Positions 34,585 through 43,367 of a DNA stretch of 43,630 nt are shown here, one piece after another. The notes below the pieces were generated by a model, which was not told the origin of the DNA, did not search any database, and saw nothing but the letters and a program-made list of their open reading frames with translations. This DNA comes from Spirochaetales bacterium. GTDB lineage: Bacteria; Spirochaetota; Spirochaetia; SZUA-6; RPPD01. The position numbers were made by a program, and so were the translations under genes. The stretch is from positions 1 through 43,630 of the forward strand of contig JAFGJO010000058.1 of assembly GCA_016929065.1 (NCBI GenBank). The letters run 5' to 3'. The first letter of the stretch is position 1. Each line of letters starts with the position of its first letter.

Positions 34585-34747
34585 ACCATGGGAAAGAATC
34601 TTCGTTTCTTTTCCCGCATGTATCAATTCTCAAAAATTAATGGTACATCCTGATTGAAAAAACATCGGGAATATAATATTGAAAAAGAGTGGAAAAAGAA
34701 GACAATATCTGAGAGAATTTATATAGATTAAAATAAGGAGGGTATTG

Positions 34748-36124
34748 GTGCAGATCCAAAAGCACGAGTTCAGACAAGAACAGCGTCTTAAAATGAGTCC
34801 GCAACTTTTTCAGGCTATACGAATTATGGCCATGCCGATTCAGGAACTGCGCCAGACGATCCGTGAAGAAATTGAAAAAAATCCTGCGCTTGAAATTGTC
34901 GAGGACCGTTCTGCAGATTCATATGAAGAAGTTTCAACCCAGAAAGATGAAGAACATTTTTTTGAAGATACATCCGATGCAGGATTTATATCGACGGGGA
35001 GCAGTACAGCCGATTCAAAACAGCGGTTCCTTGAAGGAGTTCTCACACAACACCAGTCCCTGCATGACTATCTTCTTTGGCAATTACAGCTCCAGGTATT
35101 GCCGGACGAATGGTATCAGATCGGTGAATTGCTGATCCTGAATCTTGATGACAATGGATTTCACCGCGAGTCTCCTCTTCTTCTTGTCCCCGAGGATAAA
35201 AAGGCAGACCTTGAAAAGGTGATGCATATCATTCAGCGATTTGATCCGATCGGAGTGTGTACATCAGGATATGAAGAAGCTCTGCTGGTTCAGGCTGAAC
35301 AGACAGCTGAAAAAAACCCATTGGTCAAAAGGATTATCACTGAATGTCTCCCGCTGCTTGAAAAAGGCAAGATCAAGGAAGTAGCAAAAAAACTGCAAGC
35401 GAAAGAATCCGAGGTTGAAGAGGCCCTGTCTTTTATCAGGACGCTGGAACCGCTGCCGGGCAGAAATATTTCCAGCGAACAGCCGAAATATGTTGTTCCG
35501 GATATACGGGTAAAGATTGTTGAAGGTGAATTTGTTATTGTTCTGAATGACGAGGAGATACCTGTCCTGGGAATCAATCCGTTTTTTGATAAAATAAATG
35601 ATGAGGCAGGTTCTTCGAAAGCGTCTTCAAAACAAAAGGATCTGAGATCGTTCGTTTCATCAAATATCAACGGTGCAAAGTGGTTTATCCGCAGTATAAA
35701 TCAACGGAATGAAACATTGTTAAAAACAGCACGGGCAATTATCGAATTTCAGCGGGATTTCTTTCGGCGCGGGTCAAAATATCTGGTTCCTTTAACCCTT
35801 CGTGATATCTCAGATTCGATTGGGGTGCATGAAGCAACGGTATCACGGATAACAACAGGGAAGTATGTTCAGACTGAATGGGGAATCTTTGAATTAAAGT
35901 ATTTCTTTACCAATTCAATTTCAGGGACCGGTTCCGGGGGATCACGTTTTTCTAAAGAGGGTGTAAAACAGATTGTCAAGGAAATAATTGAAAAAGAACA
36001 GAGACAGCTGTCTGATAATACAATTGTGGACATTCTGGCAAACAGGGGAATAAAAATTGCCAGGCGCACAGTTGCCAAATACAGGAAAGAACTTGGTATC
36101 ATGTCATCATTTGACAGAAAATAG
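34748..36124 (+). CDS. rpoN: RNA polymerase sigma-54 factor
   Basis: RpoN directs RNA polymerase to -24/-12 promoters and needs bacterial enhancer-binding ATPases to open them. The protein (about 458 aa) has the N-terminal activator-interacting region (RLKMSPQLFQAIRIMAMPI, REEIEKNPALEI), an acidic linker, the core-binding domain, an HTH region and the C-terminal RpoN box ARRTVAKYRK. The start is GTG at 34748 with AAGGAGG at 6 bases; the TTG three bases earlier is too close. The sequence AAGGAGGGTATT before the start recurs in front of hpf. The window contains both this factor and a matching enhancer-binding protein. Confidence 0.97.
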   Translation: MQIQKHEFRQEQRLKMSPQLFQAIRIMAMPIQELRQTIREEIEKNPALEIVEDRSADSYEEVSTQKDEEHFFEDTSDAGFISTGSSTADSKQRFLEGVLTQHQSLHDYLLWQLQLQVLPDEWYQIGELLILNLDDNGFHRESPLLLVPEDKKADLEKVMHIIQRFDPIGVCTSGYEEALLVQAEQTAEKNPLVKRIITECLPLLEKGKIKEVAKKLQAKESEVEEALSFIRTLEPLPGRNISSEQPKYVVPDIRVKIVEGEFVIVLNDEEIPVLGINPFFDKINDEAGSSKASSKQKDLRSFVSSNINGAKWFIRSINQRNETLLKTARAIIEFQRDFFRRGSKYLVPLTLRDISDSIGVHEATVSRITTGKYVQTEWGIFELKYFFTNSISGTGSGGSRFSKEGVKQIVKEIIEKEQRQLSDNTIVDILANRGIKIARRTVAKYRKELGIMSSFDRK

Positions 36125-36136
36125 AAGGAGGGTATT

Positions 36137-36430
36137 ATGGAATATGGTATACGCGGTGTGCATTGTGAAATTGGAGAACAAGAAAAGCACTTGATCGAAA
36201 AAAAGCTCCATCGGCTTGAATTCGCAGAGGATGATATTGTTGACTTGAATTTTGTTATTTCGAAGGAAAAAAGCGGGTATAAAGTTGAAGCAACAGTCCA
36301 TTTCCGCTGGGCACATAATTTTTTCATGCATGCTGATGATTTTGATGTTTCCCAGGCGATTGACAAACTGTTTAACAAGCTTGAAATCCGGATCACAAAG
36401 GAAAAGGATAAAATTAAAGGTCATAAATAG
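36137..36430 (+). CDS. hpf: ribosome hibernation-promoting factor (short HPF/YfiA)
   Basis: HPF binds the 30S subunit and silences ribosomes in slow growth. The 97-aa protein starts MEYGIRGVHCEIGEQEKHLI and has the alternating beta-alpha pattern with basic C-terminal residues (short form, no C-terminal dimerisation domain). It lies 12 bases after rpoN, with AAGGAGG. Placement between rpoN and hprK matches the well-known rpoN-hpf-ptsN/hprK arrangement in other bacteria. Confidence 0.9.
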   Translation: MEYGIRGVHCEIGEQEKHLIEKKLHRLEFAEDDIVDLNFVISKEKSGYKVEATVHFRWAHNFFMHADDFDVSQAIDKLFNKLEIRITKEKDKIKGHK

Positions 36431-36526
36431 TACGATGTGTTTTAACAGTTGAAAAACTCGTGAAATTATATTATTCTGCTGAGTGAAGCATTTCCCGGTG
36501 ATTGACACCGAACTGAGGCAACTGTT

Positions 36527-37501
36527 ATGGATAAATTTACCGTACTTGACCTGCTGCAACTCGATTTGAAGGAGCATGATGCGCTTGATTTAAAATGTAT
36601 CGGCGGGAGGCCCGGGCTGGTACGGGAAATCCAGGTCCCGGAGCTGAACAGGCCGGGACTGGCATTGAGTGGTTTTTTTGACAGCTTTGCGGATAAAAGA
36701 CTTCAAATATTCGGGAGGGGCGAACACGCATATCTGCAAAAGCTGGAGAAAGAAAGCAATCATGAAGCGATAAAACGCCTCTTCAGTTATAATCTGCCTT
36801 GCTGTGTGTTTACAAACAGCCTGTCGCCAACCCATATGTTTTTTGAATCCGCAGAAGAGCGGGGGTGTTCGCTTTTACAGTCAACGCTTGATTCCTCGGA
36901 ATTTTCATCGCGGGTAATGCGTGCATTGAGCAATATCTTTTCACCAAAAAAGAATATTCACGGCGTGCTCGTTGAAGTATTTGGAATCGGTGTGCTGATA
37001 ATGGGTGAGAGCGGTGTGGGAAAGAGCGAAATGGCACTTGAGCTTATTGAACGCGGGCATCGCCTTGTTGCGGATGATTCGGTCGAAGTGCGCTGTGTCG
37101 GGGGAAATTTCCTGATGGGAAAGGGTGTGAATATCATTGCCAGCCATCATATGGAAATTCGTGGACTGGGAATAATCAATGTTACCCATTTATTCGGTGT
37201 CGGGGCGATTCGCGATAAAAAACAGATTCAGCTGGTTGTCCAGCTTGAGGAATGGGATTCATCCAAAGAATATGACAGGATTGGCATGGAAGACAGTACC
37301 ATCGACATTCTTGGGGTCAATGTCCCCTATTTGAATATTCCGGTGAAACCGGGAAGAAATATACCAATTATCATTGAAACCGGGGCGATGAATGAACGCC
37401 TGAAAAAACTGGGGTATCATTCTGCAAAAGAATTCAACCGGAGTATCATGAATTGGCTTGAAACAGAAAGGGCACGATCCCTTCATTTTGAAAATATATA
37501 A
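36527..37501 (+). CDS. hprK: HPr kinase/phosphorylase
   Basis: HprK phosphorylates and dephosphorylates Ser46 of HPr. The 324-aa protein has the N-terminal domain, then the P-loop GESGVGKSE around residue 162, followed by MALELIERGHRLVADDSVE and the HprK signature EIRGLGIINVTHLFGVGA, and the C-terminal helix. It is followed 21 bases later by hpr, its substrate. No sugar-transport PTS genes are seen, suggesting a regulatory rather than transport use, as proposed for spirochaetes and proteobacteria. Confidence 0.95.
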   Translation: MDKFTVLDLLQLDLKEHDALDLKCIGGRPGLVREIQVPELNRPGLALSGFFDSFADKRLQIFGRGEHAYLQKLEKESNHEAIKRLFSYNLPCCVFTNSLSPTHMFFESAEERGCSLLQSTLDSSEFSSRVMRALSNIFSPKKNIHGVLVEVFGIGVLIMGESGVGKSEMALELIERGHRLVADDSVEVRCVGGNFLMGKGVNIIASHHMEIRGLGIINVTHLFGVGAIRDKKQIQLVVQLEEWDSSKEYDRIGMEDSTIDILGVNVPYLNIPVKPGRNIPIIIETGAMNERLKKLGYHSAKEFNRSIMNWLETERARSLHFENI

Positions 37502-37522
37502 ATTAAGCAGCGAAAGATAACA

Positions 37523-37789
37523 ATGAAAGAACAATCAGTAATTGTACAAAACAGAGCAGGTATACATGCACGGCCGGCGGCTTTACTTGTCCAGACTGCA
37601 GGAAATTTCAAATCTTCGGTTTATCTGGAAAAGGGATCGGAAAAAGTAAATGGCAAATCCATTATGGGTGTCATCACGCTTGGGGCTGTTTTTAATACCG
37701 AGATCACTATTATTGCTGAAGGTGCGGACGAAGAAGCTGCCGTTGAAGCTCTTGTAAATCTTTTCAACAGCAAATTTCAGGAAGACTGA
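37523..37789 (+). CDS. HPr phosphocarrier protein
   Basis: An 88-aa HPr with His15 in AGIHARPAA (the EI phosphorylation site) and Ser46 in NGKSIMGV (the HprK site), and the complete HPr fold length. Its pairing with hprK suggests regulation by Ser46 phosphorylation. A plausible SD-like AGCGAAAG precedes the ATG. A promoter for the next operon lies in the following gap. Confidence 0.95.
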   Translation: MKEQSVIVQNRAGIHARPAALLVQTAGNFKSSVYLEKGSEKVNGKSIMGVITLGAVFNTEITIIAEGADEEAAVEALVNLFNSKFQED

Positions 37790-37811
37790 TTTTTATTTTC
37801 TCATTATAATT

Positions 37812-37840
37812 TTGACAGAGCAGCAGGTTATTTATAAAAC
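37812..37840 (+). promoter_or_regulatory. putative promoter of the kinase-activator-lexA-holA operon
   Basis: A perfect TTGACA (37812-37817) is followed 17 bases later by TAAAAC (37835-37840); a shifted TATAAA is an alternative -10 at 15 bases. It would give a leader of about 160 bases. Confidence 0.45.
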
Positions 37841-37846
37841 TCTATA

Positions 37847-38006
37847 GGACGGAAGTCAAAAGCGTTGACCGAATACTTCCAGAAGAGTAGTATTCGGGAT
37901 ATATACAGTCTGTAATGCTTGTACGGGTGTATACCTGAATTGTGCTATTCCTGGAAGACAGGGATAAATGCATTTGTCAATAAACCGGTAGAAATGGAAC
38001 GTGGTT
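37847..38006 (+). other. structured leader region of the kinase operon
   Basis: This gene-free stretch contains CCGAATAC/GTATTCGG (37869-37876 and 37890-37897, 13-base loop), the palindrome GGTGTATACC near 37927 and a hairpin TATTCCTG/CAGGGATA near 37946-37966. No riboswitch class is recognised and no T-run follows, so terminator-type attenuation is not evident. Confidence 0.4.
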
Positions 38007-39770
38007 ATGAGATCTTCGGGAAGATCAACATCAATAGTGCTTGTTGTCCTCATTCTTTTTTATATTCTTTTAACCGCTATCGTCATTATTTTCTTTCAGC
38101 AGATAATGTTAAATATTACCAGCGAACAGAGTGAAGCAAATACACTTGCCGTTATTGTTTTAATCATCCTGCCGATGATTCTGCTTGCGGTCATTCTTAT
38201 TAATATTTACCGGCTGTTCAGGGAACGAATGCAGAAAATGCCTGGTGCACAATACAAAATCCGGTTAATTTTCTTTTTTGCATTGGTTGCATTTCTTTCA
38301 GCAATCCCGCAATCCGCTTTAAGCGTGAGCTTTCTGAATTCGGTTATTAACTCGGAATTTATTGCGCAGATAAATGATTCCTGGGATTTGGCTGTAGAGT
38401 ATTACCAGGGAAAAGTGAATAATTTAAGGACCTTCGGGTCGAGTACAGCGCTTCCAAAACTGATTGCATCTGCAGGGAATAATCCTGAACAACTGTGGAA
38501 ACTGATTCATACGATCAATCCGGAGATACAGTTTTTTCAGATATTGAATAAGGATGGCGAAAATATTTTTTTTGCCGGTATTGCCGAGGGGCAGTCACGG
38601 ATTTTTATTAATGCAGAAGTTGAGTCGGGAATGCTGCCGAAGATAGACCGCGATGAAGCGGCTGTGTTCCGGTATCTGTATGTTAAAAAAACAGGGGATA
38701 CGACCAACTATCTTGTATTCGGAATTTATATCCCCCCCCGGTATGTCGCTGAGTCAAAACGTGTTGCTCAGGCAAATAATTTTTTTGAAGAACTGAAAAC
38801 AGACAGCTCCCTTCAGTTTTTTATTATTTTATTTTATTTTTTGTTTTCCATCCCCATTCTGCTCGTTTCGATTATTATCAGTTTTTACCTTTCAGAGGAG
38901 GTCGTTCGGCCCATTATGAATCTGGAAGAAGCAACCAGGCGGGTGGCTGGCGGTGATTTGTCAATCCGTATTTTGACACGTTCAAGTGATGAACTGGGAA
39001 ACCTGATCGATTCATTTAACCAGATGGTCTCTGAACTGGATTATTCAAAGAAAAAACTTTCAAAGACAGAAAAAATAGCAGCATGGCAGGAAATAGCGCA
39101 GCGTCTTGCGCATGAAATAAAAAATCCTTTGACCCCCATCCGGCTTGCCGCTGAGCGGATACAGAAAAAGTATACTGAGTATCTGGAGCATCAGGAGAAT
39201 CCGGAAACACTGTCAGGGATCATCATGAATTCGGTCCATGCGATTGTTGCAGAAGTGAGCAGTCTGGACAAGCTTCTGAAAGAATTTTCAGAGTTCGCAA
39301 AACTCCCTGATCCATCCCGTGAGGCAACAAATATCAGGGAACTCATTGATGAAATGAGCACTGCATATTCCGAGGTTGATGTGAATGTTTCAATATCAGT
39401 TGAAAATATTCCGGATGATCTGCATTTAATGATCGACAGGAACCAGTTTAAACAGGTTTTCGCCAATTTGTTTATCAATGCGATTCAGGCCATGCCGAAT
39501 GGCGGAACCCTTTTTGTGAGATCCGACCTTGTAAAAAAGGAGAAAAATAATTACTGTAGAATTCAGGTTCGGGATACCGGGACAGGAATTGAGGAAAGCG
39601 TCGGGGCGCATATTTTTGATCCTTATTTTACTACGAAAAAAAGCGGAAACGGACTTGGTCTTTCAATTGTTGAGCGAATTATATTTGACCATAACGGGAA
39701 CATATGGTTTGAATCACAAATGGGAGTTGGAACAACATTTTTTATAGATATACCCATGGAGACTGAATAA
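38007..39770 (+). CDS. NtrY-like membrane sensor histidine kinase
   Basis: A protein of about 587 aa with several N-terminal membrane helices (STSIVLVVLILFYILLTAIV, then about 50-70 and 90-105), an extracytoplasmic loop to about residue 265, a further helix (FFIILFYFLFSIPILLVSI) and a HAMP domain (IMNLEEATRRVAGGDLS). The transmitter follows with phospho-acceptor His in RLAHEIKNPLTPIRLAAERI and the ATPase with DTGTGIEE and GNGLGLSIVERI. No PAS domain is evident between HAMP and HisKA, where NtrY proteins usually have one. The ATG at 38007 is preferred to a GTG two codons earlier. It directly abuts the response regulator. Confidence 0.9.
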   Translation: MRSSGRSTSIVLVVLILFYILLTAIVIIFFQQIMLNITSEQSEANTLAVIVLIILPMILLAVILINIYRLFRERMQKMPGAQYKIRLIFFFALVAFLSAIPQSALSVSFLNSVINSEFIAQINDSWDLAVEYYQGKVNNLRTFGSSTALPKLIASAGNNPEQLWKLIHTINPEIQFFQILNKDGENIFFAGIAEGQSRIFINAEVESGMLPKIDRDEAAVFRYLYVKKTGDTTNYLVFGIYIPPRYVAESKRVAQANNFFEELKTDSSLQFFIILFYFLFSIPILLVSIIISFYLSEEVVRPIMNLEEATRRVAGGDLSIRILTRSSDELGNLIDSFNQMVSELDYSKKKLSKTEKIAAWQEIAQRLAHEIKNPLTPIRLAAERIQKKYTEYLEHQENPETLSGIIMNSVHAIVAEVSSLDKLLKEFSEFAKLPDPSREATNIRELIDEMSTAYSEVDVNVSISVENIPDDLHLMIDRNQFKQVFANLFINAIQAMPNGGTLFVRSDLVKKEKNNYCRIQVRDTGTGIEESVGAHIFDPYFTTKKSGNGLGLSIVERIIFDHNGNIWFESQMGVGTTFFIDIPMETE

Positions 39771-41141
39771 ATGCCGTCAATTCTGATTATTGATGATGAA
39801 CAGGGGATCCGCCAGGTACTCAGTGATGTCCTGCAGGATGAGGGATATAATGTCCTGACTGCGGAGGATGGATTTAAAGGGCTTTCCATGCTGGAATCGC
39901 ATCCTGTTGATCTTGTTATCCTTGATGTCTGGCTGCCGAATATGGGTGGGATTGATGTGCTCGAAAAAATAAAAGCTGAATTCTCCGATGTGGAAGTGAT
40001 TATTATTTCAGGGCATGCCAATATTGATTTGGCCGTGAAGGCAGTAAAAATGGGGGCTTTTGATTTCCTTGAAAAGCCCCTTTCTCTCGAGAAAACGATC
40101 ACTGTTGTAAGAAACGCCCTGGCGCTTGAAGGTTTGCGCAAAGAAAACAGAAATCTCAAAAACACACTCTTTATCGAAGACAGGATGATCGGCGAGAGCA
40201 GCGGAATGAAAAAAATACATGAACTCATTGCTCAAAGTGCCGCATCAGATGCAAGAATCCTGATTCTGGGTGAAAATGGAACGGGAAAGGAACTGGTGGC
40301 ACGTGCCATTCATATGAACAGCAAACGAATGAATGGTCCTTTTATCGAGGTAAACTGTGCTGCAATCCCGGACACACTCATTGAAAGTGAATTATTCGGC
40401 CATGAAAAAGGGGCATTTACCAGTGCATTCGCCCAGCGAAAAGGACGGTTTGAACTTGCTCATCGTGGGAGTATCTTCCTTGATGAAGTAGCGGATTTGT
40501 CTCTGAGTGCACAGGCGAAGGTTTTGAGGGTAACGCAGGAGCTTTCATTCGAGAGAGTGGGCGGAGAGGATAAAATTGAAGTTGATGTCCGCATTATTGC
40601 TGCGACAAACAAGGATATTGAAAAGGAAATCAAGGCGGGTAATTTCCGTGAAGACCTTTTTTTCCGGCTCAATGTCATCCCCATTATTGTTCCTCCTTTG
40701 AGGGAAAGAAAAGACGATCTCCCTTTGCTTGTTGATTATTTTATGGAACGGTTCAAGCCGCCGAAATTGATCGAGCCGAAGAAAATGTCCGCCAAAGCAA
40801 TGGAATTGCTCGCTGCATACAGATGGCCTGGAAATATCCGTGAGCTGAAAAATTTTATGGAACGAGTTAATATTATGACCACTGAGGATCTTATATCAGA
40901 TGCATCTGTCAAACAGTATCTTTCATCAGAAGACCTCAGCCAGAACTCCTCACGTGTCGATGACTATGGTGATATGAACCTGAACCAGGCAAAAGATTCA
41001 TTTGAGAAAGAATTTATAATGACAAAACTGCGTGAAAACGGTTATAATGTATCGAAGACAGCAGAAAATCTTGGTTTATACCCGAGTAATTTGCATAATA
41101 AAATCAAGAAGTATGGTATAAAAATAGAGAGGGAAAAATGA
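39771..41141 (+). CDS. NtrX/NtrC-like sigma-54-dependent response regulator
   Basis: A bacterial enhancer-binding protein of 456 aa. The receiver (1-120) has phospho-acceptor Asp52 in VILDVWLP; the AAA+ domain has Walker A GENGTGKE (167-174), Walker B GSIFLDEVADLS and the sigma-54 contact loop at 214-219, reading GAFTSA instead of GAFTGA; a Fis-type HTH ends the protein (YNVSKTAENLGLYPSNLHNKI). It starts at the base after the kinase stop and ends in a 4-base overlap with lexA. It is the natural partner of RpoN, encoded about 3.6 kb upstream. The signal sensed is unknown. Confidence 0.93.
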   Translation: MPSILIIDDEQGIRQVLSDVLQDEGYNVLTAEDGFKGLSMLESHPVDLVILDVWLPNMGGIDVLEKIKAEFSDVEVIIISGHANIDLAVKAVKMGAFDFLEKPLSLEKTITVVRNALALEGLRKENRNLKNTLFIEDRMIGESSGMKKIHELIAQSAASDARILILGENGTGKELVARAIHMNSKRMNGPFIEVNCAAIPDTLIESELFGHEKGAFTSAFAQRKGRFELAHRGSIFLDEVADLSLSAQAKVLRVTQELSFERVGGEDKIEVDVRIIAATNKDIEKEIKAGNFREDLFFRLNVIPIIVPPLRERKDDLPLLVDYFMERFKPPKLIEPKKMSAKAMELLAAYRWPGNIRELKNFMERVNIMTTEDLISDASVKQYLSSEDLSQNSSRVDDYGDMNLNQAKDSFEKEFIMTKLRENGYNVSKTAENLGLYPSNLHNKIKKYGIKIEREK

Positions 41142-41737
41142 AGGGATTAACCAAGCGGCAGAAGAGCATTCTTGATTATATAAAGCAATACATATTATCA
41201 CATAAATACCCGCCGACAATTCGTGAAGTTGCAGAAAGATTTGATATTTCCGTTAAAGGCAGTTACGACCATATCAAGGCATTGGAAAAGAAGAAATTTA
41301 TCAAATGCACGGGAAACCGTTCCCGTGCCATTGAAGTGGTCTGGACAGAGGAGGAGCACGATGTTGCACGAATTCCCCTTCTGGGTAATGTCGCGGCAGG
41401 GAAACCGCTTTTTGCTGAAGAAAATTTTGAAGGCACGGTCGGTGTTCCGGCCGGTTTTCTGAACAATGGAAAACATTTTGCCCTGAACGTCCGGGGTGAC
41501 AGTATGCAGGATGCGGGAATCATGGACGGTGATATTGCCATTATAAATTATCGCAATGTTGCAGATAATGGTGATATCGTTGTGGCGATGCTCGATGATT
41601 CCGTTACTTTGAAACGGTTTTTCAAAGAGAAAAACAGGGTGATGCTCAAAGCAGAGAATAATGCATATCCTCCTATTTTTTCACAGGAAATAAAAATACT
41701 CGGCCGCCTGGCCTGTATTATCAGAAAATATGACTGA
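41138..41737 (+). CDS. lexA: LexA-type SOS repressor/autoprotease
   Basis: LexA represses DNA-damage genes and cleaves itself when RecA is active. The 199-aa protein has a winged HTH (YPPTIREVAERFDISVKGSY), cleavage site Ala87-Gly88 in NVAAGKP, catalytic Ser122 in RGDSMQDAG and Lys159 in SVTLKRF. It is translationally coupled to the NtrX-like gene upstream (ATGA) and to holA downstream (8-base overlap), so it has no obvious own operator. I do not see a recognisable SOS box in front of it. Confidence 0.93.
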   Translation: MKGLTKRQKSILDYIKQYILSHKYPPTIREVAERFDISVKGSYDHIKALEKKKFIKCTGNRSRAIEVVWTEEEHDVARIPLLGNVAAGKPLFAEENFEGTVGVPAGFLNNGKHFALNVRGDSMQDAGIMDGDIAIINYRNVADNGDIVVAMLDDSVTLKRFFKEKNRVMLKAENNAYPPIFSQEIKILGRLACIIRKYD

Positions 41738-42701
41738 CAATTTGTGTTATCTTTTCCTGGGTCCGGAGGTGGGAGAAAAAGACCAGCAAATCCAGGCTCT
41801 TCTTCAATCAATCGAAAAAAGAATAAATTCCAAACCAGAAATTTACAAATATTTCGGGTTTGAGACCAGGGCAAATGATGTACTTTCTTTACTGGGAAAT
41901 CAACTGCTGTTTGCAGATTTTAAGGCGGTTATAATCCAGAATACCGAGAAGATGGGAAAGCCGGATCTTGCTGCCCTGGCTGAATACTGCAAAAAACCTG
42001 CTGCGCAATCAATGCTCATTCTCTGTTCTGATGAGATTGGCGCCCCCGACTCCCGGATAGATAAAGCTATACCGGCAAAAAACAAGAAAATATTCTGGGA
42101 GATGCTGGATCAGCAAAAAAGGGGCTGGATTATCAATTTTTTTTCGAAACGAAAAATAGTAATAGATGAGGATTCTATAGATCTGATTCTTGATGTAGTT
42201 GAGAGCAATAGCCGGGACTTGAAAACGATTTGTGAACGGTTGGAGATATTTTTTGGTAAAGAAAAAACCATCCGCTATGCGGATATTGAAAACTTTGTAT
42301 ATCACAGCAAGGAAGAGAATGTATTCACACTGTTCGCAGGATTAATGAAAAAAGACTTCACATTGTCTTTGGAAATATGCAATAAAATACTTTTGTCTCA
42401 GGGAATAGATCCGGTTCGAATCGTAAACGGGCTTGTCTGGCAGTTCAGGGTTCTTTTGAATTTCCATCATTATCTTTCCGAAGGGTTGAGTCCTGAACAG
42501 TCGCTTCAGAAACTGAGTATACGAAGTAAACGAAGGCAAAAAATACTGCTCGAAGGGAAAAAAAACTTTTCTTACACTGATATCATGAATATCATACAGC
42601 TTATAGCTGAATATGATGTAGCCTTCCGGTCTTTTTCCACGAATGTACATCAATATTTACTTGAATTATGTATATATAAGATTATAAAAAAGAGCCAATA
42701 G
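41730..42701 (+). CDS. holA: DNA polymerase III delta subunit
   Basis: The delta subunit of the clamp loader opens the beta sliding clamp. The 323-aa protein has the HolA N-terminal domain (CYLFLGPEVGEKDQQIQ), a middle part with IDEDSIDLILDVVESNSRDL and LEIFFGKEKTIRYADIENF, and the C-terminal collar domain (EENVFTLFAGLMKKDFTLSL). Divergence is typical for this subunit. It starts within the lexA 3' end. No terminator with a T-run directly follows; instead a set of inverted repeats begins 2 bases after the stop. Confidence 0.86.
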   Translation: MTDNLCYLFLGPEVGEKDQQIQALLQSIEKRINSKPEIYKYFGFETRANDVLSLLGNQLLFADFKAVIIQNTEKMGKPDLAALAEYCKKPAAQSMLILCSDEIGAPDSRIDKAIPAKNKKIFWEMLDQQKRGWIINFFSKRKIVIDEDSIDLILDVVESNSRDLKTICERLEIFFGKEKTIRYADIENFVYHSKEENVFTLFAGLMKKDFTLSLEICNKILLSQGIDPVRIVNGLVWQFRVLLNFHHYLSEGLSPEQSLQKLSIRSKRRQKILLEGKKNFSYTDIMNIIQLIAEYDVAFRSFSTNVHQYLLELCIYKIIKKSQ

Positions 42702-42702
42702 C

Positions 42703-42750
42703 ATACAATAATGTAGCTTTTTTGATACATTAATTACATTATTGTATCAA
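42703..42750. repeat. nested inverted repeats downstream of holA
   Basis: ATACAATAATGTA (42703-42715) is the exact reverse complement of TACATTATTGTAT (42735-42747), and TTGATACA (42722-42729) pairs with TGTATCAA (42743-42750). The two pairings exclude each other. It may be a 3'-end structure of holA, or a binding site (upstream activating sequence) lying about 170 bases before the predicted sigma-54 transcript start. Confidence 0.5.
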
Positions 42751-42878: not shown

Positions 42879-42895
42879 TTGGCACAATTATTGCA
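42879..42895 (+). promoter_or_regulatory. sigma-54 (-24/-12) promoter
   Basis: TTGGCAC-AATTA-TTGCA matches the sigma-54 consensus TGGCAC-N5-TTGC with the invariant GG and GC exactly 10 bases apart. It is in a long gene-free region. A TATAAT overlaps downstream (42897-42902) but has only 12 bases to the best -35 and no other. Start of transcription is expected at about 42906. It is the best sigma-54 match I found in the gene-free gaps I compared by eye. Confidence 0.7.
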
Positions 42896-42905
42896 ATATA
42901 ATAAT

Positions 42906-43097
42906 CAGTTAACTATGTGAAGTTGTAAATATATTACAACAGACCAAAATGCATGGAATTGTTTGTAATTGATTATGATATTTAGCAATCTGGAGTGCTT
43001 AAAGTACTTTTGATTGCAAATATATACTGTGAAACTCCATTGCTCCACAGATTAAGGGCCCTTGAGATGCTCCAGTTTCGGGGCCCGCTTTTTTTTT
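42906..43097 (+). ncRNA. candidate sigma-54-dependent small RNA
   Basis: Between the sigma-54 promoter and a strong intrinsic terminator lies about 190 bases with no coding frame. It contains hairpins GTTGTAA/TTACAAC (42922-42928 and 42934-42940), GCAATC/GATTGC with inner AGTGCTT/AAGTACT (42985-43017), CTGTG/CACAG (43027-43031 and 43046-43050) and the terminator. Two of the loops carry CTCCA, complementary to GGAG ribosome-binding sites. It does not fit 6S RNA (no long closing stem) or tmRNA. The name and any target are unknown; existence of the transcript is inferred. Confidence 0.6.
43056..43097 (+). terminator. rho-independent terminator of the candidate small RNA
   Basis: GGGCCC (43056-43061) pairs with GGGCCC (43081-43086) around a 19-base loop containing GCTCCA, followed by GC and nine T residues. 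Confidence 0.82.
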
Positions 43098-43222
43098 ACC
43101 CCTTGTTCCAAAAAACATACTTATTTATTCGTTGAAATTTCGAGACCAGATCAGGAAAGATGTAAGTTTACAAACATATAATGCTCACTGATCAGCTTTT
43201 TTCATATTAGTTCTAAAAAAAT

Positions 43223-43258
43223 GGAGAATGAATCACACTTTAATGTGATTCATTCTCC
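43223..43258 (-). terminator. terminator of tRNA-Arg
   Basis: GGAGAATGAATCACA and its complement form a perfect 15-bp stem with a 6-base loop. On the minus strand it is followed by ATTTTTTTAG. The 43098-43222 stretch before it shows nothing else recognisable. Confidence 0.8.

Positions 43259-43294: not shown

Positions 43295-43367
<73 letters not shown>

Follow-up and report, generated by a model that had tools for sequence, protein, structure and literature searches.

Near the end of a 43,630-nucleotide contig from a Spirochaetales bacterium, which was analysed at its full length and is here called the window, a nitrogen-starvation promoter of the kind found before glnA and amt appears to drive a stand-alone non-coding RNA of about 190 nucleotides (nt), a reading to which a probability of roughly 0.55 is assigned. 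The predicted RNA occupies 42906-43097 on the plus strand, with its start placed 12 nt after the GC of the -12 element and its end at an intrinsic terminator. The promoter, upstream dyads shared with amt and glnA promoters, an unusually stable fold, and the terminator give good support, at the DNA level, for a small non-coding transcript that depends on sigma-54. When nitrogen is short, a small regulatory RNA (sRNA) is probably produced. The source genome (G000) is a 3.49 Mb draft in 69 contigs that is 95.8% complete, the window being one of these contigs, and three genomes of its family were available, each in a genus of its own (G000, G001, and G002).

The putative promoter is TGGCACAATTATTGCA (TGGCAC-AATTA-TTGCA) at 42880-42895 on the plus strand. 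The criterion for sigma-54 promoters was the pattern TGGCAC-N5-TTGCW with an invariant GG-N10-GC, together with activator sites about 80-250 bp upstream, and the locus shows both the exact consensus and the upstream sites. GG lies at 42881-42882 and GC at 42893-42894, with 10 bases between them, and no other exact match to TGGCACN5TTGCW occurs in the window (0.02 expected per window from shuffled sequences). Across the genome, the slightly wider pattern TGGCAYN5TTGCW is found at 11 sites including this one, most of them before genes.

Upstream of this element are two perfect TACA-W4-TGTA dyads, putative binding sites for an enhancer-binding protein: TACAATAATGTA at 42704-42715 and TACATTATTGTA at 42735-42746. 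They are 31 bp apart and precede the -24 element by 176 and 145 bp, respectively. Simulated windows (n=200) gave an expectation of 0.03 TACAW4TGTA sites per window and not a single dyad pair, while the whole genome holds 13 such sites compared with 6 for a reversed control pattern. Dyad pairs before amt and glnA promoters are mostly spaced 29-31 bp apart. In a survey of about 70 sigma-54 sites with inspected flanks, drawn from 26 genomes of the order, pairs spaced by 29-41 bp in which one or both dyads are perfect were present only before amt (L071, L075, L080, L083, and L131), glnA (L118), and this RNA, and a Pfam check of the dyad-pair targets returned Ammonium_transp or Gln-synt. Two TACA-N4-TGTA dyads that precede a sigma-54 site at a mutual spacing of about 30 bp were taken as the mark of the nitrogen regulon, and the window locus carries them; judged by these sequence features, the regulon of the promoter can be named as nitrogen assimilation.

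Further dyad sites adjoining sigma-54 promoters in G000 precede two ammonium transporter genes (L083/L124 on contig C20 and L131 on contig C65), and at L129 (G000:C62:69739-69801 and following) a truncated amt fragment of about 50 residues, a decayed member of the same nitrogen regulon, is preceded by two perfect dyads and, as a third site, a near-match. Looser coincidences were seen before genes other than amt or glnA, namely two overlapping one-mismatch sites at L077 and two one-mismatch sites 70 bp apart at L087, and a lone dyad at L063 precedes an Amt-like frame for which the frame submitted gave no Pfam match. The remaining sigma-54 promoters of G000, whose downstream genes encode small heat-shock-like proteins, factors of the sigma-70 type, and other products (named by eye from translation), are without dyad pairs of the kind found at amt and glnA. 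Five of these loci apparently form a second sigma-54 regulon, for stress: the promoters at L086, L088, L089, L073, and L087 precede genes for three small heat-shock-like proteins and for two factors of the sigma-70 family, and some have GTCATNATGAC-like sequences upstream.

The sequence following the promoter is predicted to be highly structured, since the region 42906-43099 folds at -52.1 kcal/mol, compared with -37.8 +/- 4.2 kcal/mol for shuffled sequences (z -3.39), and only 1 of 200 shuffles was as stable. A long imperfect hairpin of 46 nt, ATATTT.GCAATC.GGAGTGCT-TAA-AGTACTTT.GATTGCAAATAT (42978-43023, plus strand), is present in both the minimum free energy and the centroid structures. 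It is followed by a 24-nt hairpin, CTGTG...CACAG (43027-43050, plus strand), in which, according to the fold and the unpaired probabilities, the loop exposes ACTCCATTGCTCC with two CTCCA motifs, and this large loop contains ACUCCAUUGCUCC in the predicted structure. The intrinsic terminator (43056-43097, plus strand), recognized by both the terminator scan and the fold, combines a GC-rich stem, a GCTCCA loop (GCUCCA in RNA), and a tail of nine T, the last at 43097. Altogether, CTCCA (CUCCA) occurs three times in the RNA against 0.08 copies expected, always in or at predicted loops, and it is complementary to ribosome-binding sites of the UGGAG type (Shine-Dalgarno-like). The hairpin is present in a single copy in the genome, and its derivation from a repeat or mobile element was rejected on that ground.

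No open reading frame with a proper ribosome-binding site was found within the RNA, the longest frame starting inside it being 46 amino acids (42995-43135). The existence of this open frame speaks for a transcript that encodes a small protein instead of acting as RNA, but the frame depends on GTG or TTG starts, reads through the terminator and its T run, and has no Pfam match; on these grounds and the missing ribosome-binding site the small protein was rejected, and it is regarded as very improbable.

The preliminary description of this DNA, prepared from the sequence alone, had already pointed to a full -24/-12 element, about 190 bases of multi-hairpin non-coding sequence, and a strong intrinsic terminator, all of which are borne out by the above results. 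It had also recognized no known RNA family, in agreement with an Rfam search in which nothing in the region reached gathering score and the matches below that score were weak and chance-like, and had correctly noted rpoN in the window and an activator operon ending about 200 bases before the start. It missed the two perfect dyads, as well as the arrangement in G001 described below.

The window and G001 share a conserved arrangement with different contents. In both, holA is followed by a pair of dyads with a spacing of 31 bp and then by a sigma-54 promoter (TGGCACGCTTCTTGTA in G001). The window continues with the RNA and with tRNA-Arg(CCT) on the opposite strand, and G001 with glnA and tRNA-Arg(CCT). 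The anchors of this synteny are holA (41730-42701, plus strand; TIGR01128), which has orthologues in 24 of the 26 genomes of the order, and the tRNA gene (43295-43367, minus strand). In G002, tRNA-Arg(CCT) directly follows holA, with neither glnA nor the promoter there, and glnA is located elsewhere. A glutamine synthetase search of G000 found no full-length type-I GlnA, only a 708-residue GlnN-type (type III-like) protein; since about 4% of the genome is possibly missing, loss of glnA is likely, not proven. No decayed glnA coding sequence is detectable in the window. The glnA of G002 (L134, about 1000-1240) is preceded by a sigma-54-like site that lies approximately 240 nt from the start codon and thus has a long leader, compared with a leader of 40 nt in G001. 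The fold of the G002 leader is not unusual (z -1.2), and homology of the RNA to it was rejected because the covariance model gave no match.

From these features the following course of events may be proposed, in which we infer transcription itself, the choice of activator, the pairing with mRNAs, and the identity of the targets. Under nitrogen limitation, an enhancer-binding protein would occupy the two TACA-W4-TGTA dyads, which lie about three helical turns apart, and the bound activator, for which a GAF-domain NifA-like protein is the best candidate, would activate RpoN polymerase at 42880-42895. Transcription would begin near 42906 and end at the terminator near 43097. The placement of CUCCA in loops and its complementarity to ribosome-binding sites suggest translational repression, so that base pairing through these loops is the probable mode of action. 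By pairing with UGGAG Shine-Dalgarno-like sequences, the RNA would reduce the translation of certain mRNAs when nitrogen is scarce. A more far-reaching version, in which the glnA nitrogen promoter has been taken over by a new, Hfq-independent regulatory RNA in which anti-Shine-Dalgarno loops are repeated, the enzyme gene being replaced at its own promoter, is put forward only tentatively.

Several negative results weigh against a functional nitrogen RNA. No homologue was found by BLAST in 395 genomes of the class or with a single-sequence covariance model in 248 class genomes plus chosen loci, and the RNA is absent from the other two family genomes, which belong to other genera. Beyond the window, BLAST matches were confined to the promoter and to short stretches, most of them rich in AT, and the RNA was likewise not found in viral contigs (searched with one exact pattern) or plasmids. 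There are consequently no homologues with compensatory base changes that would mark a conserved functional RNA, and neither covariation nor conservation of stems; the expectation of the preliminary description that promoter and stems would be conserved in relatives is borne out for the promoter region, which drives glnA in G001, and fails for the RNA. Hfq (PF17209), the mark of an Hfq-dependent base-pairing sRNA, was recognized in none of the three family genomes, although the same search was positive in 5 of 14 control genomes, so that a base-pairing RNA would need another chaperone or an Hfq-free mechanism. Target prediction by duplex energy on the 102 available leaders yielded nothing significant and singled out no target; with -22.1 kcal/mol for its duplex with the terminator loop, the leader of the GlnN-type glutamine synthetase gene (glnN) ranks sixth of the 102, which is not significant.

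The main rival to the nitrogen-RNA reading holds that glnA was lost or moved and that its intact nitrogen promoter now makes an idle short transcript ending at a chance terminator. The presence of glnA at exactly this position in G001, the failure to find a full type-I glnA in G000, the lack of both glnA and promoter at holA in G002, and the missing RNA homologues all agree with it, and the truncated amt remnant at L129, which has kept its dyads, indicates that nitrogen-regulon genes decay in G000. Against it speak a fold much more stable than that of shuffled sequences, the clustering of CTCCA motifs, the retention of a perfect promoter and two perfect dyads, and the lack of any coding trace of glnA in the window. 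In G001, moreover, the tRNA directly follows glnA with no terminator resembling that of the window. On balance, an orphaned glnA promoter is considered unlikely, although it is a serious competitor.

A narrower question, compatible with the nitrogen-promoter reading and concerning only the activator, is whether the RNA is driven by the NtrX-like response regulator encoded nearby (39771-41141, plus strand), forming the linked regulator-sRNA unit that the preliminary description had thought plausible. NtrX (NF051870) is the best family model for this protein, which scores below its cut-off, and the last base of its operon, in the order kinase-regulator-lexA-holA, is 42701, which leaves 205 bases to the predicted RNA start. 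The loop of the protein reads GAFTSA in place of GAFTGA, the normal sigma-54 contact motif, and the same position is degenerate in most of its orthologues. G002 keeps an NtrX-like orthologue (78% identical), yet its amt and glnA sigma-54 promoters are without dyads. On the unlinked contig C8, in the region of G000:C8:118019, G000 encodes a GAF-domain NifA-like activator with a GSFTGA motif (TIGR01817, 521 bits against a cut-off of 529), of which G001 has a 75% identical orthologue and none appears among the G002 matches, so that the dyads track this protein across three genomes, a small sample. In Pseudomonas, the NrsZ RNA is also located directly downstream of ntrC (PMC8395346), a parallel in favour of linkage, while in Leptospira amtB is driven by RpoN with the GAF-type activator EbpA (PMC12655853). 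The GAFTSA loop, the distribution of the dyads, and the Leptospira precedent together make the linked unit the less likely wiring. The C8 protein is the best activator candidate, with the NtrX-like regulator second, and it is likely the functional counterpart of EbpA. Activation by the NtrX-like regulator is possible but not favoured, and a co-located regulator-sRNA unit appears rather improbable, also in view of glnA occupying this place in G001. Of the preliminary description as a whole, the sigma-54 RNA at the DNA level, belonging to no known family, stands, whereas the linked unit and the conservation of stems do not.

Sigma-54-dependent sRNAs are few, to our knowledge. Stand-alone examples include Qrr of Vibrio and GlmY/GlmZ of enterobacteria, whose regulons, quorum sensing and amino-sugar supply, differ from that proposed here, the window RNA also being without an Rfam match. 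The closest parallel is NrsZ, an RpoN-dependent sRNA of about 226 nt that is controlled by nitrogen limitation and encoded on its own in an intergenic region, immediately after the operon of a nitrogen two-component system (Wenner et al. 2014, as described in PMC8395346). The window locus resembles it in its DNA features, being stand-alone and intergenic, about 200 nt long, and provided with a sigma-54 site and nitrogen-type dyads, with the transcript predicted. NrsZ uses NtrBC and is widely conserved in Pseudomonas, whereas the window RNA probably uses a GAF-type activator and is known from one genome. Compared by description, and with no Rfam match at gathering score, the window RNA may be functionally like NrsZ and is not known to be related to it. 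GlnZ of enterobacteria, an RpoN-dependent nitrogen sRNA formed from a 3' untranslated region of 185-197 nt with an intrinsic terminator (PMC9731577), likewise arises as non-coding RNA from a glnA-type nitrogen promoter that uses sigma-54, and it is similar in size and termination. Membership in GlnZ was rejected, as the window locus has no glnA mRNA, the window no glnA remnant, and G000 no recognized Hfq. The Leptospira EbpA-RpoN system shares with the window the combination of spirochaete RpoN and a GAF-type activator driving amtB, and the accessible part of its report describes no sRNA in the regulon (PMC12655853). A search of open-access papers found no sigma-54-dependent sRNA described for spirochaetes. 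The locus is best regarded as an unproven addition to the already known class of stand-alone sigma-54-dependent nitrogen sRNAs.

The genes upstream (34745-42701) are, in a row, rpoN (34745-36124, plus strand; TIGR02395, 401 bits, above cut-off), a ribosome-hibernation-type gene, hprK-like and HPr-like genes, the histidine kinase gene, the NtrX-like regulator gene, lexA, and holA. The kinase has the LIC_11548 family of Leptospira as its best match, and in the Leptospira gene numbering LIC_11548 falls between rpoN (LIC_11545) and EbpB (LIC_11549), which suggests an old rpoN-EbpB neighbourhood common to the window and Leptospira. Comparison of HolA places the relatives of G000 among Spirochaeta/Treponema-like genomes. 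Downstream, the minus strand carries a 16-bp stem with T after it (43223-43258). This stem is probably the terminator of tRNA-Arg, and its symmetry may allow it to stop transcription from both sides. At the contig end (43555-43630), 'aaatgtcccc' repeats look like an insertion-sequence end, a possible reason for the contig to stop there.

If the nitrogen-RNA reading is true, a nitrogen-controlled sigma-54 sRNA would exist in a lineage without a recognizable Hfq, and the pair formed by G001, with glnA, and the window, with the RNA, would offer a comparison of how the promoter of a gene can pass to a non-coding RNA. Independently of the RNA question, the TACA-W4-TGTA dyad provides a testable operator for nitrogen control in spirochaetes, together with a candidate activator.
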